64,000 nucleotides of DNA from Tubulanus polymorphus. Its lineage: Eukaryota > Nemertea > Palaeonemertea > Tubulaniformes > Tubulanidae. Positions 39,269-50,034 of the stretch are shown here, in pieces. The notes beneath the pieces were generated by a model that saw only the letters and a program-made list of their open reading frames with translations, searched no databases and was not told where the DNA came from. The position numbers and the translations under genes are program-made. Position 1 is the stretch's first letter. Every line of letters begins with the position of its first letter. Location of the stretch: positions 13,583,962 through 13,647,961 of the forward strand of contig NC_134034.1 of NCBI RefSeq assembly GCF_964204645.1, given 5' to 3'.

Positions 39269-42260
39269 TTACACGAGAGACGCGTCGAAACTTTCTTTCA
39301 GCGAGTCGTGTTTAGTTCGTCGTTCGTCGAGCGAGGGCGCTACGGTCAGTGAATATTCGCGGTCGGCCAGTGAATCGAGAATCGTTCGTACGTCGTCCCG
39401 CACGACGTCGATCGCGCTCAACTGTTTCGCCGAAATCGGTAAAATTCGATCGAATTTGACGAAATTTTCCGGTCGATGTTCGGCGGGTAATTCTTCAACC
39501 GATGCTGAAAAACATATTCAAATCTCTAATCATGTTTTCAAGATATTTCTTTTTCCCTTGACGACGAATGAGAGTTCCACTTCGGATTCATATCGTATTT
39601 ACTTACATTGAACATGTTTTAATTTGTCCAGCAGTTCGTCCAGTAACGCCTGTGATCCGTCTATGTCCATTTTATTGACGATTAACATCGCCGGTTTATG
39701 AACCAAATCTGGTTTATACAATTCCAACTCCTAAATGAAAACAATTCAATCAATCATCTTTACTCAGTTTTTAATGAATATATATATACTGTCAATCCCC
39801 GATATACTGCGCCTACAAACGGTTTTGGCGGTATAGAGAGTATGGCGTTATATCGGGGGCATTTTACTACGTATTTGTATAGAGATGTGCATTGTGAAAA
39901 CCTGGCGGTAGGCGGGGATGGTGGTATGTGGGAGGGTGGTAGGCGGGGGTGGCGGTATATGGGAGGGTGGTAGGCAGGGTGGTGGTATATGGGAGGGCGG
40001 TATATCAGGGGTTCACTGTACTGTCAGATTGTTGTAGTGATAATGCCACTCGTCCTAGATCCCTAAATAACATACTTACTTTATTCAGTAACATGACCGT
40101 TTCAAACACCGACCGCGACGGATATTTGAGTCCGAGTCGAAATCCGTGAACATCGACGACGAATAGATGAAGCTTCGTTCGTTCGACGTGTTTCAAAAAC
40201 CGGTGTCCGAGTCCGATATTCAAGTGAGCGCCCTCTATCAGCCCGGGCAGATCGGCGACGGAAATCTACGAATAAATAAACAACACGAAAACCAGTTTTC
40301 ATGGCGACCACCGTATTTATTTGATCTCGTCGTTTTTCCCGACTTGTTAAGAATTCCTGATCTGTAAGAACTCTGTATGTTACCTGTCGATGATCTTCAA
40401 ACTCCATAACTCCGAGTTGCGGTTGAATCGTTGTAACTGGAACAAAAATACAAATCAATCTTGAATTATGGACTTAAGACGGATGAAGAGAGCCACCATG
40501 ACTACCTACTTACACGGATAGTTGGCTATTTTTGGATTTGCTCGTGAAACTGCGGCTAAAAACGTCGATTTTCCGGCATTCGGGAACCTAAGAATTTGAA
40601 AAAAAAAATCTTTAATGAGGAATTACGACCCTGCGCAACCCGCTATCCTTCCAGACAGCTTGCGTTGATAACTAGTTAGTTACCTAATCGTTGGTGGTAA
40701 GCTTTTTATAATCGGATGAGCTTATACCATTTGGTTTGTGAAAATATCCGATCGTGAAACTAAACCACAGACAGGTTACTGACTACGTTGATGCCCTACT
40801 ACGCACTAGCGACACCTGGATCCTCACTTGCCAGAAGTGGAGAATCCTATATCGGTACAGTCGATTGCTGAGCAGCTACGAGGGATAAGTAGAATGATAA
40901 GTTTCTTACCCGACTAATCCGACATCAGCGATCAGTTTCAGATCTAGGTTGACACTAAATCCTGTCGCCCGCGATCCGATATATCCGGTGTCCGGATTAC
41001 CTCCGTCTGCTCCCTTCGCAACCAACAATCGACTATCCGGTTTGTTCAAATCACCTTGAAAAATAGATAATATGATACAGTGTAGCTGCCCGGTAGCTGA
41101 ATTGAATCGGTCACAGTCGCAAGTCAAACACACTGGGGCCAGTTTCATGGTTTTGACTTGAACCGGAATCGAAATTTCCAATTATGTACTTATTATGTAA
41201 CTCGACCAGCGACAAATCAACTACATTTTGTACTTCGATTTCTAAATCAAACCCTGTGAGATATAATCATTGATAATGAACTAATTTCACTAGAAATTTA
41301 CCTAAAGTGCGTTTAGTGTCTGTTTGTACGACGATACCAGTCGGTACTTTGATTGTGATGTCGCGCCCCGGCAATCCTTTTAACTGCCATCTCCTGAAAT
41401 AAAAGAAAAGCTGGTTACAAACGAGGTCGAGTCTGGTCTGTACCCAATTCATAGAGCGCGTCACTTCCGGAACCAGTTGCAATTCACACGCAATCATTTG
41501 ACCCGTGCTAAATTAATGAAGTACATCAATTCCACTCATTTTTTTCTAGATTTTTCTGATTCTTGAGTTTTCCAGGTTTTCCAGGTCAGTGGCCACTTGA
41601 CTATTGTTTCTAATAAAGATATCGATTTCTTTCATGAACGGATCAATAATTGAGCAGGTTGCGTCTGCAGCCCGTGGAAGAGGGGTAGAGTACACGTACT
41701 TGCTGTCTGCTCCGATGGACGCGATGAATCTCTTCGATGGATTCTCCTGATAAACTTGTTTTAACGTATAATTCTCCTTCGCGACGAGGTAAACGTCGCC
41801 GCCCTTTCCTCCTAACCCGCCATATTTCGGGAATCCTTTACCGCCGGCGCCACCTCGCACGTAGATACGCAGTTTATCCAGAAACGTTCCTTTTGCCTGC
41901 AAAATGAAATACGAAAAATGAATTGTTGAGTAGTTTTCAATTGAGGGTCCAAAACCAAATTTGCCTGTGCCTGTGGTAAAATAAGCCAAGGGCAAGGTGG
42001 GGTACTGTGGACTGTGTGGCTATGCAGGATTCCATGTATGGCAAGCGAGGATCCGCCACTAGGTTTGCGAATGGTAACCACATTTCAATTTCAATGACAA
42101 TCTTTGTATGACAGATCAAAATGATTGTCATATACAGTCACAGACTATTATTATATATGACGAATAAATTGAATTGAATTTGGTAAATCGATCTCTTTCT
42201 TACACGAAATTTCGGTTTTGGTTTGTAGATATTCAACAAAGAAACACTCAGTTGAACCAT
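39269..42260 (-). CDS. GTPBP10: GTP-binding protein 10 (Obg family, mitochondrial)
   Basis: Nine minus-strand exons join in phase: 42260-42204, 41896-41700, 41393-41302, 41054-40910, 40587-40514, 40436-40384, 40265-40080, 39730-39607, 39504-39269, giving 387 residues, the human length. The start [10 protein letters not shown] aligns with human MVHCSCVLF; a longer frame starting at 42414 ends in the wrong phase, which decided the start. A Gly-rich Obg fold ([20 protein letters not shown]) fills about residues 20-150. The G domain shows G1 GFPNAGKST (about 164), G3 DLPG (211-214), G4 NKMD (287-290) and a G5-like PISAK. GTPBP10 is a GTPase assisting assembly of the large mitochondrial ribosomal subunit. 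The basic N terminus fits import into mitochondria. The gene is head to head with the CREB-type gene. Confidence 0.95.
39787..40020. mobile_element. Pogo/mariner-like MITE carrying a G-rich minisatellite
   Basis: The left end CTGTCAATCCCCGATATACTG and the right end (reverse complement TACAGTGAACCCCTGATATA) are imperfect inverted repeats. A GGGAGGGTGGTAGGC-type minisatellite (39903-40010) has expanded inside. It lies in GTPBP10 intron 7. The superfamily is a guess from end sequence. Confidence 0.45.
40807..40820 (+). promoter_or_regulatory. CTCF-like core motif, copy of the one at 2779
   Basis: TAGCGACACCTGGA followed by TCCTCACTTGCCAG matches 2779-2810 beyond the CTCF-like core, which argues for a shared repeat origin. 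It lies in GTPBP10 intron 4. Confidence 0.3.
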
Positions 42261-42802
42261 ATCTGTACTTCTGATGTTTGGCAGCCACGATATCCAATAG
42301 CAACCTGTTTTTCGAAGTTTTCCAAGCCAAAAAGACGATATTTCGATGTTTTTGCATGAAAGAATAATTTTTCGAAAATATGTTTACGACGGCTGTAACA
42401 CTTTCACAGAGCAAGTTTATCCGTACCCGATGTAATTATAATAATCGGTAAATTATTCAGTGATTATTCTACTAAAGATATGGGATAATGAGTTCTGTTA
42501 GAAAAATTAGGTGATTAAAATCAGTTTAATTGCTGTTTTCGTAATCGCCACCCGTAAACCAATTAAAATCAAGTAAGTAGTAAGGAGAATAGTCGGACAA
42601 AATAGTCCACTCGGCTATTCGAAATAAAGCCCTCGAAAATATTAAACCTGGCTTCAAAAAGCAAGAATTTTGCTGGGAATCGAAATTTGAATTATCCAAA
42701 AAAGTGATACTTCGCAAATTGACATCGAAATGAACATGACGGTGACGCGTCTTACTTGGAAACAAGGTCAATGAAATAGTGCCCGAGGAATCCCAAAATC
42801 GC

Positions 42803-42834
42803 TGACGTCATGTTTATCTATACCAGCCAATCAG
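42803..42834 (+). promoter_or_regulatory. CRE + CCAAT module, copy A
   Basis: A full palindromic CRE TGACGTCA (42803-42810) followed by CCAATCAG starting at 42827, 24 bases from the CRE start. It lies about 540 bases upstream of the GTPBP10 start codon. About 26 of 32 bases match copy B at 43647. Confidence 0.65.
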
Positions 42835-43439
42835 CGCCATGATTGATCTCGAATTTCATTCAATATCAGTAGGCCTAATTTGATTCGTGCGACTGCGATC
42901 GTTCCGTGGTCTGTGACAAGATCTTTTCGCAATAAAGAAATTACTCAAAAAAGAAAAATACTTTCAATTCGTAAGATTAGATTAAGCCTATCTTGGACTA
43001 TTTAAAAAAAAAAAAATTAAAAATTTTAAAAACCTCGAGAAGGCCAGCAGCTCCAGCTTCTCAAAATATTGAACTTATTTTCAGTTTACAGGCAGAAACA
43101 CTCAATTCCGTGTGGTTTTCATTATAGTTAAAAACTTGAATTTTATTTAAAACATATTTCGAAAGAGATGAATTCATCCGTCATGATTTTCGATCTAGAA
43201 TTTTTCGTGGAAGTTGTTTTTTCCCTCGCGCTTTTTCAAGAAATTTTAAGATGAAATTTTTAAAACGCCTATGGAATTCCATTGAAATATCTTTTCCCAT
43301 TTGCTGTTTCTTTTTATTCTTGGACAAAATCCGTGCTCCATTAATTTGTTCTTGAAAAAATCTGCCAAATAGAAAATTTAGGAAGGCCCTGCGGGTAGAA
43401 AATAAATCGATCTTGATTTAGCGGATTTCATACATTTCG

Positions 43440-43472
43440 CGCCATCGACACTCGCCTCCAGTGTCGATGGCG
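43440..43472. promoter_or_regulatory. Perfect 13-bp stem-loop
   Basis: CGCCATCGACACT and AGTGTCGATGGCG flank a 7-base loop CGCCTCC. It lies between the two CRE-CCAAT modules. Function unknown. Confidence 0.5.
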
Positions 43473-43646
43473 AATTTGTAAAGGACTGTGTTTCAAACAG
43501 CGCGGTCAGTCTACACCGTCATGGCTGTGTTTATAGCGCCGATTCAGAAACCCGTCGAGGGGATTGTCCACACTGCACGTAAATTCGCAAGGTGACATCA
43601 TGACATTTAAATATTGGGTCGGGAAAATGAAGCGCGCCTTATCGAG

Positions 43647-43678
43647 TGACGTCATGGTTATAGATAGCGGCCAATCAG
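43647..43678 (+). promoter_or_regulatory. CRE + CCAAT module, copy B (CREB-type gene promoter)
   Basis: TGACGTCA (43647-43654) with CCAATCAG starting at 43671, the same 24-base spacing as copy A. It lies 225 bases before the donor of the probable noncoding first exon. CREB genes of mammals are autoregulated through CREs in their promoters, so feedback control is plausible here. Confidence 0.7.
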
Positions 43679-43739
43679 TAACGAGAACGGGCCAGGGACG
43701 CGTATGGATACAGCACCGGTGATCAGGTCGGCTCTTTCT

Positions 43740-43878
43740 CTCTGTAGATGACGCAGCTCTGACTCTACTCAGTGTGTCTACGTGTGTGTGTAATTTTGAC
43801 GTGGCCACTACGTATTCAGCAAATTTATCCACTCCGATTGCCGCAAACTTGTGACGACGAAAAGTACGTAACTGACTG
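43740..43878 (+). other. Probable noncoding first exon of the CREB-type gene
   Basis: A CpG-containing stretch ends at GTGAGT (donor 43879-43880). The next acceptor, GTGCAG at 45285-45290, leads to the ATG exon. The 5' limit is a guess. The intron of about 1.4 kb shows no coding exon and includes a CAGGGTTCCTACAGG repeat fragment near 44958. Confidence 0.45.
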
Positions 43879-45331
43879 GTGAGTCTTCATAACAAAACAA
43901 CGTGTCGACACGGCCGGGATCGCGCGGGGGTCTACCCAGGTCCCGGCGTCGGGGTTCGAGCCCACCTTAAATCCACCATTTCGGCTTTTGAAGCCGATAC
44001 GTAGATATTTGGGGCGAGCTTGTTGTAGTGGAGTAAAATGGCAGCGTTGCCGTTGTTTGTTGTTGGGGTGAGGATCGAATCGCGTTCGCGAGGCGGTGCC
44101 GATTAAATTAGACTACGGATTTTGAATCGATGACGAATCCGTGGTGTATTTATTTGATGATGTCACTTTAAAGTTTCGTTGCGTAGTAGAATTGAAATCT
44201 AGTAAATTAATAGACACCTCGGACTTCAGAATTTTGTCGCGCATTTCATTAAATAAAATCGAAAGAGATTATCTTATTATAGAAACTTGCTTACGATTTT
44301 AATTTAAAGATTAAGGCTGTAGGGCCTAGGCCTATGTACTTTTTTCATTTTTCTACTTAAAGAGCAAGGTCTTTTGCCCTCTTGTTTTTTTCTAGACCTC
44401 ACTTTTTTGTCCTTTTTGAAAACATTTTAACTTAAATCGCCAAGGAATCTAGAGTTGAGTAGGCTTATCACTTAGGATTATTTTCCCGAAATTTTACAGC
44501 TGCTCGACCGCTCAAGGCCCTTGTCTTGCATTCATTCCTTCTTGGTTAGGCGTAGAAGATTTAGATGTGATGGATCTGATTATTTTAAATTTCTAAAAAG
44601 ACGTTTCTATTTAATTAGATATTTTAATGGATTTTCTAATTATTTTGAATTCCAAATTTGAATTGAATATAGTTCAATTGTTTTCCTGTCCATTAAGTTG
44701 ATTACTTCAATATTTTATTAGTTATCCATTTGATCATTTTGATTTGATTTAATCTATTTTGAATGTTCATTTTTAAATCAATGTCATTGAACTTTTCAAT
44801 TTTCAAGTCTTATTATCTCAATCTATAGCCTATTATGCACTTGAGCAGGCTGATTTTCTAAAAACCCATGACATACTAATTAGCATACTAATTAATTAAT
44901 TATTACATACTAGGCTAATTAATTTTTTGTGAATCATGCATAGTCCACCTCGGCCTAACAGGGTTCCTACAGGTCGTTGTATACCCTAAAAATTCAGAAA
45001 TTCTAAAAGGGGGAAATACTCTAACATTCTGAGCTTCCCCTCATATCCCTAAAACGCCAATTTTGGAAATTGCCTCAGTAATTTTTTCCAACTCAATATG
45101 TGAATTTATCATGAACAGTTACAATGTCTATCATGGGCGCAATTCACTAAACAAGTGCTACTTTTTCCGCACTAAATAGTGCTGAAAAGAGGTAACCTTT
45201 GCCTGAACTGCTATGAACCATGTCGTTATTCTAATCAAATGTTTTCTTTATTTTTGTTTTTTGAATGCGATGTGGTTTGGCGCGGTGCAGCAGGAGGAAT
45301 TCTGTAGTTTAGTTTCGATGGTTATTAATAC

Positions 45332-48300
45332 ATGGATTTGGAACACGATTTGAGTTCCGACACAGAATTAGATGATAACGTCATAGTTTCAGCGCCACCA
45401 CAAATATCTATCGTTCACATCCCGAACAATAACTCCATCAATCAATCGGTAAGATGATCAATCAATGGTAAAATGATCAATCAATCGGTAAGATGATCAA
45501 TCAATGGGTAAAATGATCAATCAATCTAAGGTGAACAATCAATGGATCAGGTGATCAATCAATCGGTATTATGGTCAATTTATCTATAAGATGATCAATT
45601 TATTGGTAAAATGATCAACTGATCAATCAATCTAAGACAATCAATCAATCTGTAAGATTATCAATACTGATGAAACTTAAGTGAAGTTTTAAATTGTCTG
45701 AAATGGGAGGACCATGGTCCTTCCATTGAATTTTATCTGAATGGAAGATTACCTAATCTGAATTTGCCCCCAGCGATGTTTGAATATATTTGATAACAAT
45801 AAGAAAAATATTTGTCCGATTATGATGCAGGTATCTCCGGGTTCAAGCGAAGACTGTGAAGATCAAGAGGGCAGAAAGCGGCACGAACTATTGAGTCGCC
45901 GCCCGTCGTACAGGTTAGTGTCAATCTTCATCTGCTCATAGACTTTTGTCTCTTACTGCGGTAAAGTTGAGACTGGTAAAATTCTAGCCCGAGTTGGTGT
46001 CAAATACTGAGCATGAGATTGTGAAATACAGTAGACTATGTCTCTTACTGCGGTAAAGTTGAGACTGGTAAAATTCTACTCCGAGTTGGTGTCAAATACT
46101 GAGTAAGAGTTTTTGAAATACAGTAGACTCTGTCTCTTACTGCGGTAAAGTTGAGACTGGTAAAATTCTACCCCGAGTTGGTGTCAAATTCTGTATAAGT
46201 TGAAACTTGATATTTCTAGAAGATTGGTGTCAGATACCGATTACAGGAAATTCGATCTGCCTGAATTTGTTCGTGTTGAAATTCTTAGTTCCATATATAT
46301 TTCGTGTTTATTTACAGGAAGATATTAAACGAGTTATCATCTGACAATCCGCCGGTCACGGTGGTACAACTAGCCAAAGTGGAGGAGGAATCGCTCTCCC
46401 CTCACAGCCAAGACTCGGTGGAGGGAAATGACGCGGCGAACAGCCTTCAATCCTCATCAGCAGTTACATCATTCCAGCAGGCTACCGGTAAGTATGAATC
46501 CCGCGGTCGTGCTGCGCATCCTCAATCGGCAGCACGGATTTAAACCTGGTGGCATCAGTGGACTCGGCTACGACACAAATCCCTGCCACGTGTTGAAGAT
46601 CTGAAATACCTCCTCCCTGTATTCCCCTGTACAGTAGTTTTTGTGATGCAGACACTTTTGAAACTTCTTCCTTTAAAACGCCTTGAAAATTCCTTATATC
46701 CAGGAATGACTGATGCGTAGAGACCCCGGCGAAATACGATCCAGTTATAGGATGAAAATCCGCGAAACCACTGAATTATGCGTTCACTGAGATAAACGGT
46801 ACTTGGGATATGAAAGTGATGTAGACACTTCCTTGAAAATTCTTTCTATCCAGGAATGACTGATCAGTTGCGACCCTGTTTTAGTAAACATTGCGTTATT
46901 TCTGATCTATCGCGACTTGTTTCCGGATCAAAAGCATTTGCCTAAAAAAAAAAATTCTTTGTCTGGGTTTTGTTTTGGTTGATACGGTCGATGTTTTTCT
47001 GTTGTAGTAATACCCGCTCACACGATACAGATCGCCGCTCAAGACGCCAACACGCAGGGCTTACAGACGCTAACGATGACGAACGCCGGCGCAGCGGGCA
47101 CCACCGGTGGCGCCACTATCGTACAGTACGCTCAGGGTCCAGACGGACAGTTCTTTATACCCGGTGAGCACATTCGATCGTAGTTCGTAGTGTATATATT
47201 TAGATGATCCCCCCCCCCCCTAAACAGACCCCGACCGCGTACACGTCTGTCAAGTTCATTGTTAGATACTTAGACGCTTCTGAAATAGTTAAGAGTACAC
47301 GCGACCCGGTTCCACACTGTTCCATGAGTTACAATTTGACTTCCGGTTAAATCATCTCAACTGCGGAACTGGATCCAGTTAAATTTGTTTGTTTTTCCGC
47401 TTTGTGGAACTGTGGTTCTTGCGAGTTTGAAACGAGTACGTTCATGTTTGGATATATGATTTTGTTGCGGAATCCAATCAAATTTCCACAGTTATCGTCG
47501 AGCAGGTCTATCGAACTGTTTACCTATGAGCCTGTCCCTCGAGTCACAACCAGTCGAGCTAATTTTAGTAGTATCTTAAATTAAACCCCAAACAAACTGG
47601 AACGTAGTGAACCGATCGCGATGATTTATTTCTTTTCAAATAATCTTGTCGAAATTGAATATACAAAGAATGTGTAGTATATTCTGCGCCTGGAACTGTT
47701 TGTTTTCTCTCTGTAAACAAAGAAATCGAGAAATCTTTTTTACCGGGGGAATATTTTTTTTAGTATGGCCTGTGTCTATTTTGCAGGCGGTAGTGTTGAG
47801 ATGCTTCAGAACGGAGGTAGGATTTGATATTAAATTTACTCCCCATCCACACACTCACTCACACACGTATATATATACCCCCTTCGCTTGCGCCATATCC
47901 CTACCATCCTCAGTCCGATTCTTAATCAGTAAATATCAAATGACGAGCGTGAAAGCTTTAACCTCTCTCGCCCTTGCCATTGGAATCATGAAAGCTAATG
48001 GAAGGGTGACACGTATGACTTGCCCTACCCCCCTCCAACAATCCCGGTTTATATATCATAATTATTGTGTCGTTTGAGTATATTATTAATATTTTGTGTT
48101 TAATCGTAATTAAAAGAAAAAAAAACTGAAATGATTGTTAATTATTAGTACGAATGTGTGTGTCATTGTTAACTGCCACTAACGAGTTAATTTATTTATA
48201 TGATTCATTGATATTGACGATGATGATGTTGATAGCTTGCACTTGATTTATGTTATGTCTTCAGTATGGTTGTGATGATTCTAAAAGGGATTGTTTCGAT

Positions 48301-50034
48301 TCGTCTAATTATAAAATCAAAAAGTCAATCAGTTTGTGTCTCACCGCCAGACCTCCTTCTGGGCATCTCACTCTCAAATTGCTTTAGATTGTTGCAGGAC
48401 CTATCCCCTCCCCCTCCGAAAACAAGTAAAATTTTTTATTTCGCAAATACGTCTAAAATCTCTTCTGATAATCAAGAAACAGTTTTGTGTTTTGTGCTTC
48501 GATGATTTTTTTTGGCTGCTTTCGCACAAAACAACGAATATCATGTTTCTGAGCAACGCATGTATTCACAAAACCCGCCGGCAGAAAAACATTTAACTAC
48601 CGTATGTTTTCTATTTGCGTCCACCCCGCAGTGCGATGTAAAGATGTAATGCTTTAGTAGTGTCTACTGTGCTGCGTATAATGGATGATATGCTATATTG
48701 CGTCTACCCCGGGGTGTGGCGTATAATGGACTAACCGCTATATTGCATTTACACCGCGGTGCAGTGTATATCTGATGTACCGCTGCCTGGCAGTATGGTG
48801 TATTGTTACTTATCAATATTGTTTATTATAGAATAATGTTTGCCGCTTACTGCCATCTTTCAATAGAGATAAAACTAATTACTAATCACATTGATACGCC
48901 GCATGTTGGTGTACTACCAAAATCCTTCACCGATTTATACACCGCCATGTGATGTAATTGCACTGAAAGGTTACAGGTTACAATTTGTTGTTATGTTTTT
49001 TGTTGCAGTGACGTTAGCCGGTAATGTACAGGCATATCAGATCAGTACGCCGACGTCTCTACCGCAGAGCGTCGTGATGGCAGCTAGTGGCGCCACGTTG
49101 ACCGGTACGTCGGCGCAAATATCAGAAGAGGCGGCTCGAAAACGAGAGTTGAGATTACTTAAAAATAGGTACGTACACGTGTGCAAGAATTACTGATCTA
49201 CGTGTAGATTGGTCATAAAACCATGTTTAGGTTAGTCTGGGATTAAAGTTGTTAGATTGGCTATAGAAGCGAGAGGTAAGCTTAGACTGATCTTAAGTTG
49301 TAAGATTGGCTATAGAACCAAAATGAACTTAGACTGATCTTAAGTTGTAAGATTGGCTATAGAACCAAAATGAGCTTAGACTGATCTTAAGTTGTAAGAT
49401 TGGCTATGGAACCAAAATGAGCTTAGACTGATCTTAAGTTGTTAGATTGGCTATGGAACCAAAATGAGCTTAGACTGATCTTAAGTTGTTAGATTGGCTA
49501 TGGAACCAAAATGAGCTTAGACTGATCTTAAGTTGTTAGATTGGCTATGGAACCAAAATGAGCTTAGGCTGATCTTAAGTTGTAAGGTTGGTTATGGAAC
49601 CAAAATGAGCTTAGACTGATCTTAAGTTGTTAGATTGGCTATGGAACCAAAATGAACTTAGACTGGTTTGAAGTTGTTAGATTGGTTATAGAACCAAAAT
49701 GAGCTTAGACTTGTCTTAAGTTGTTAGATTGGCTGTAGACTATAGAACTAGAATGAGTTAAGATTGAACTTAAGTTGTTAGATTGGTTATAGAACCAGAA
49801 TGAGCTTAGACTGGTGTCAAGCGAAGATTTCTCGATGTGGAAAAGATGTGTTCTATTTTGTTTGTAATTCTAATTTGCAGGGAGGCAGCGCGTGAATGTC
49901 GTCGCAAGAAGAAAGATTACGTTAAGTGTTTGGAGAACCGCGTTGCCGTGCTAGAAAATCAGAACAAAGCTCTGATCGAAGAGCTGAAGTCTCTTAAAGA
50001 ACTTTATTGCCAAAAAGAACACCAGGTGGCGTGA
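45332..50034 (+). CDS. CREB1: CREB/ATF1/CREM-type cAMP-response transcription factor
   Basis: Six exons join in phase: 45332-45448, 45831-45913, 46318-46487, 47008-47163, 49009-49168, 49881-50034, giving 279 residues. The kinase-inducible domain spans about 46-78, with the PKA site RRPSYRKILNELSSD at Ser65 (mammalian CREB1 Ser133) split across exons 2 and 3. A Gln-rich/constitutive-activation-like region follows (LQTLTMTNAGA, VQYAQGPDGQ, VQAYQISTPTS). The bZIP occupies the C terminus: basic EEAARKRELRLLKNREAARE then CRRKKK, and leucine zipper YVKCLENRVAVLENQNKALI. It should bind CRE as a dimer in the nucleus and recruit CBP/p300 when phosphorylated. The glutamine-rich domain before the KID of vertebrate CREB1 is very short here, nearer to ATF1 or short CREM forms. 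One orthologue of all three is likely. A 30-nt cassette exon candidate lies at 47787-47816. Confidence 0.95.
45430..45670. repeat. Short tandem repeat of about 20 bp spanning the first coding-exon donor
   Basis: ATCAATCGGTAAGATGATCA and variants (GGTAAAATG) repeat across the exon end. The true donor is at 45449; an identical ATCGGTAAGATG recurs with GT at 45488-45489. Use of the second would read through GTA AGA TGA and stop. Confidence 0.85.
45943..46195 (-). repeat. 92-bp tandem repeat, about 3 copies, in CREB-type intron 2
   Basis: TCTCTTACTGCGGTAAAGTT recurs at 45949, 46041 and 46133, 92 bases apart. It is the reverse complement of the ACMSD intron 7 array (37257-37624). Confidence 0.95.
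46497..46600 (-). mobile_element. tRNA-derived SINE fragment
   Basis: On the minus strand GTGGCAGGGATTTGTGTCG and a decayed B box GGTTTAAATCC match the SINE copies near 30 kb. It starts directly after CREB-type exon 3. Confidence 0.5.
47787..47816 (+). CDS. Candidate 30-nt cassette microexon of the CREB-type gene
   Basis: TCTATTTTGCAG precedes a 30-base segment followed by GTAGGA. Flanking exons meet at phase 1, and inserting these 30 bases keeps the frame, adding ten residues to give FFIPGGSVEMLQNGVTLAG. The polypyrimidine tract is good. CREB-family genes are widely alternatively spliced, but no transcript evidence is available here. Confidence 0.45.
48620..48972. mobile_element. piggyBac-like MITE remnant
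   Basis: Contains CACCGCGGTGCAGTGTAT, AATAGAGATAAAACTAATTA and ends GCACTGAAAGGTT, as in the intact copy at 35.5 kb. The left end is degraded and inner CTACCCCG units look partly amplified. Confidence 0.55.
49205..49815. repeat. 47-bp tandem array from palindromic family 1, about 12 copies
   Basis: CTTAGACTGATCTTAAGTTG and TTAGATTGGCTATGGAACCA repeat across the last CREB-type intron. The unit equals the internal sequence of family-1 elements (for example 51600). Confidence 0.92.

Follow-up and report, generated by a model that had tools for sequence, protein, structure and literature searches.

Genes at the locus

The window, which is the whole 64-kb stretch of Tubulanus polymorphus DNA that was analysed, contains a GTPBP10 gene on the minus strand and a CREB-type gene on the plus strand, both as called in the original prediction, and an Rfam search of the window found no RNA gene. 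The pieced GTPBP10 exons match GTP-binding protein 10 chains (7oi6; best E 7.6e-59 among the chains of solved structures) and, upon domain search, also the OBG family. The stretch containing exon 2 with the OBG domain (41546..41896, minus strand, ends approximate) is covered by domain as well as structure-chain matches, and a first coding exon of 19 residues is likely located at 42204..42260 on the same strand, where a donor CGT/GTAAGA is in phase with the next exon.

The CREB-type gene possesses both a pKID domain, encoded by exons within 45861..46543 (45861-45914 and the initial part of the frame 46289-46543), and a bZIP domain, the exon of which resides in an open frame at 49810..50034 (PF00170, E 1.7e-15), all assigned by domain search on the plus strand. 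As read from the sequence, the likely ATG is located at 45332 and begins a coding exon (MDLEHDLSSDTELDDNVIVSAPPQISIVHIPNN...) at 45332..45448, with its end approximate. The preceding noncoding exon 1 is predicted to extend over 43769..43878, plus strand, from an initiator-like TCAGT at 43769 to the donor CTG/GTGAGTC at 43878/43879. In an exon-by-exon search of the assembly, some stretches of which read N, this gene was the only pKID match found; vertebrates possess CREB, CREM and ATF1.

Two related CRE-CCAAT modules

Between the two genes lie two modules of the composition TGACGTCA-N16-CCAATCAG, module A at 42803..42834 and module B at 43647..43678, both on the plus strand and 844 bp apart. 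The CRE TGACGTCA starts at 42803 and 43647 and the CCAAT box CCAATCAG at 42827 and 43671, giving a start-to-start distance of 24 bp in both, and a consensus CRE and a CCAAT box within tens of base pairs, the arrangement of a composite promoter element, are thus present in each module. Both sites are identical in A and B and the 16-bp spacers TGTTTATCTATACCAG and TGGTTATAGATAGCGG agree at 11/16 positions, which amounts to 27/32 identity between the copies (84% according to a repeat finder). The duplicated module with its spacing and the distance between the copies was therefore reproduced as described originally, with the likeness upheld and its extent corrected from approximately 26 of 32 bases.

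The 60-bp flanks of A and B match at 16/60 and 19/60 positions, which is chance level, and a gapped local alignment of the 350-bp flanks detected no similarity (p 0.52 and 0.997), so that a longer duplicated block around the modules was rejected. The whole regions outscore all 300 shuffles through the module alone, with the likeness reaching no more than a few bases beyond it on the upstream side. As the flanks display no residual homology, the case for duplication rests on 32-36 bp, and the suggestion of a recent duplication finds no support. Furthermore, the spacers match almost equally well in opposite orientation (TGG-TATAGATA versus TGGTTATAGATA, around TATAGATA, p 0.0014), which makes an additional, third site within the spacers possible.

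When the positions shared by A and B were searched with up to three mismatches, the only two matches in the 267.8-Mb genome were these modules, with none in the reversed control, and a DNA search of the 1.4-kb interval against the genome matched the interval itself alone. As no further copy was recovered genome-wide, the module is not a dispersed repeat, and the 32-bp unit occupies two places instead of many unrelated loci. In 210 pairs of long spacers from unrelated CRE-CCAAT modules the number of identities averaged 4.7 and did not exceed 9, against 11/16 for A and B; the corresponding binomial p is ~0.001, or ~0.0003 against composition-shuffled spacers. Strict, non-redundant modules would be expected to pair up within 1 kb by chance 0.008 times in the whole genome. 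As the A/B pair was chosen for its resemblance, these figures are somewhat generous. The pair is real and alike beyond chance, and is a slightly unusual representative of an ordinary kind of promoter element.

Spacing of CRE-CCAAT modules in the genome

Strict CRE-N2..32-CCAATCAG modules occur 65 times genome-wide, some of them as repeat copies, against one in a backward control that, as it is without CpG, is a rough yardstick only. After like spacers had been collapsed 47 non-redundant modules were left, the spacer lengths of which are non-uniform (p 0.004), with 13 at 11-13 bp and 12 at 22-24 bp, and a looser, overlapping module set peaks at these lengths as well. The two favoured classes are approximately one helical turn apart, though no single period for a helical phasing of the spacers reached significance (p 0.08 and 0.55). 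For several partners of NF-Y, human data likewise give a distance of 10-12 bp to CCAAT (PMC7793273).

The 16-bp spacer of A and B is off the lengths favoured in this genome, a supporting and not a defining feature of such elements. Common descent consequently explains the shared spacing better than a geometric rule and the case for direct CREB/NF-Y contact is weaker, so that the conserved 24-bp spacing finds no support as a functional geometry. The reverse order, CCAAT upstream of the CRE, is found at 62 places, a similar number that includes many repeats, and no order bias is therefore claimed. With respect to gene starts, Pfam on nearby frames gave a mixed picture for the other modules, with several close to genes and others apparently within them, which is why it was not counted as evidence.

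The CRE and CCAAT words are also found together in dispersed repeat families (for example at G000:C1:12272005-12272034), represented by TGACGTCATGCCAAT / TGACGTCATAGACGTCAACCAAT and by TGACGTCATTGTGGCACTCAGCCAATCAG. Two diverged 5S rDNA tandem arrays with units of ~627 and 796 bp (G000:C3:19004000-19008000 and G000:C5:16908800-16912800) both harbour ATTGG-N16-TGACGTCA, in 5S sense, in the intergenic spacer as part of a conserved island containing AGATTGAGTTGCTAAGTAGCTGT. The 16-bp spacer sequence of the 5S rDNA arrays differs from the one of A and B, and the arrays illustrate that this spacing can be met in another context.

Position of the modules relative to the genes

Copy B is located just upstream of the predicted first CREB exon, as had been proposed, in a GC-rich segment (0.48-0.58 versus ~0.33 around) ~200 bp before the good splice donor of the predicted exon 1. 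Its CCAAT box precedes the initiator-like TCAGT at 43769 by 98 bp, a usual distance of a CCAAT box to the start, and TCAGT, being short and occurring eight times between 42150 and 44000, provides weak evidence. Around this exon, at 43450-43899, six half-CRE words (TGACG/CGTCA, a palindromic full CRE scored as two) were counted versus 0.76 expected per 450 bp, a number reached by 0.17% of 450-bp windows. That copy B is a promoter element of CREB is thus a credible assignment from the sequence context. A perfect inverted repeat (arms CGCCATCGACACT of 13 bp, loop of 7 bases), present once in the genome, is situated at 43440-43472, ~175 bp before module B.

Copy A is separated by 543 bp from the likely GTPBP10 ATG, upstream of which it lies, and its description as the copy nearer to GTPBP10 holds in this loose sense; it has the same orientation as copy B, toward CREB. 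Inspection of the sequence near copy A revealed no convincing start-linked signals. A donor-like GTAAGA near 42971 is a candidate to permit an upstream CREB exon. Nothing positive indicates that copy A drives GTPBP10, and it may be a second CREB element.

Two elements of one gene or one element for each gene

The explanation that we consider probable, by a modest measure, is that both modules are cis-regulatory elements of CREB, with B proximal and A a distal element or alternative promoter, most likely copied from one element. The same spacing and strand, the 27/32 identity, the uniqueness, the likeness of the spacers and the proximity of the copies count for this explanation, as do the surroundings of copy B (GC-rich segment, donor, initiator-like word, half-CRE words), the single pKID match and the genome-wide excess of CRE-CCAATCAG proximity, while the flanks without homology, the opposite-orientation spacer match and the unfavoured 16 bp count against it. 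In mechanistic terms, the CRE would be bound by dimers of CREB/ATF-type bZIP proteins, plausibly including CREB itself, and the adjacent CCAAT box, in the orientation common to both modules, by NF-Y. Copy B would be the proximal element in the promoter of noncoding CREB exon 1, and copy A, ~0.9 kb upstream of this exon, as a second element. One ancestral element would most likely have been copied long ago within the intergenic region, with the binding sites kept and the surroundings diverged. As CREs are on record in the mammalian CREB promoter (PMC3174124), autoregulation of CREB through the modules is, by analogy, a fair guess.

The alternative put forward in the original prediction, that copy A is a promoter element of GTPBP10 and each of the divergent genes possesses one CREB-responsive module, appears unlikely. 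Being palindromic, the CRE has no orientation of its own, and a CCAAT box functions in either one. Copy A is on the upstream side of GTPBP10, within the intergenic region that the two divergent genes share, where a minus-strand donor-like TCCAA/GTAAGA near 42755 might terminate a 5'UTR exon starting close to the module. The literature on the CREB promoter and GTPBP10 offered little of direct bearing; in the accessible part of a mouse study on targets of CREB1, PTHrP and p53, Gtpbp10 is among the qPCR primers, with the gene set unstated there (PMC4854515). Against this alternative stand the 543 bp to the likely ATG and a module orientation that follows CREB rather than GTPBP10. In addition, the frame of an out-of-frame ATG at 42357 runs past the GTPBP10 ATG and overlaps the start codon, so that a 5'UTR beginning near copy A is disfavoured unless this ATG is spliced out. 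Adjacency alone is behind the link between copy A and GTPBP10 control, which is accordingly weak, and the same observations speak against copy A tying GTPBP10 to cAMP feedback.

Of comparably low probability is an independent origin, whereby the CRE, the CCAAT box and a shared TATAGATA-like spacer site arose separately under selection in one regulatory region. A CRE close to CCAATCAG is over-represented in the genome, nothing is common to the flanks of A and B, and the likeness of the spacers in opposite orientation fits an independently arisen shared third site as well as a simple copy. Speaking against it are the spacer length of 16 bp common to both copies, which lies outside the favoured classes, together with the direct spacer identity of 11/16.

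The most far-reaching version, a double autoregulatory switch of the sole CREB gene with A also driving GTPBP10, by which mitochondrial ribosome assembly would be tied to cAMP feedback, is improbable. Even less is to be said for a chance resemblance spotted while scanning 64 kb: the pair was met by inspection instead of a planned test and sites are plentiful, with five CREs in the window versus 1.1 expected, but the spacer p of ~0.001 or less, the 0.008 pairs expected within 1 kb and the failure to find a third genomic place with up to three mismatches make it highly improbable. Finally, fragments of a dispersed mobile element can practically be dismissed, as families with CRE and CCAAT such as the TGACGTCATTGTGGCACTCAGCCAATCAG and TGACGTCATGCCAAT repeats are present here but the 32-mer occurs twice only and the 1.4-kb region is without other match, which contradicts such an origin at the search sensitivity used, with an old family below that sensitivity conceivable.

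The original prediction stands with respect to related and unique modules, one of which is at the expected CREB promoter, and finds no support for the spacing geometry, the tie to GTPBP10 and the recent duplication. If both modules work, they would make CREB autoregulation amenable to a compact test by mutation in an animal for which one pKID-type gene was found; the GTPBP10 link, if true, would matter more.

Comparison with known systems

The combination of CRE and CCAAT and the presence of CREs in CREB promoters are already known. In the SXY module of MHC class II promoters, an X1 box for RFX, an X2 box for CREB and a Y box for NF-Y are combined. The modules described here share with it a CRE-like site and a CCAAT box at fixed distance, but have the CCAAT in opposite sense and a non-MHC context; by-eye inspection of the module flanks saw no RFX X1 box beside the CRE. 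Composite promoters of CREB/ATF and NF-Y, such as those of fibronectin and cyclin A, likewise combine a TGACGTCA-type site with a CCAAT box located a few tens of bases away, in the proximal promoter. What differs here are the two copies with a spacer of identical 16-bp length and the location upstream of CREB itself, with binding being putative. The mammalian CREB promoter, in turn, resembles the locus in having CREs upstream of the CREB gene that are open to autoregulation, whereas the pairing of CRE and CCAAT in two matched copies is particular to the present case, the two promoters being likened by CRE content and not by homology.
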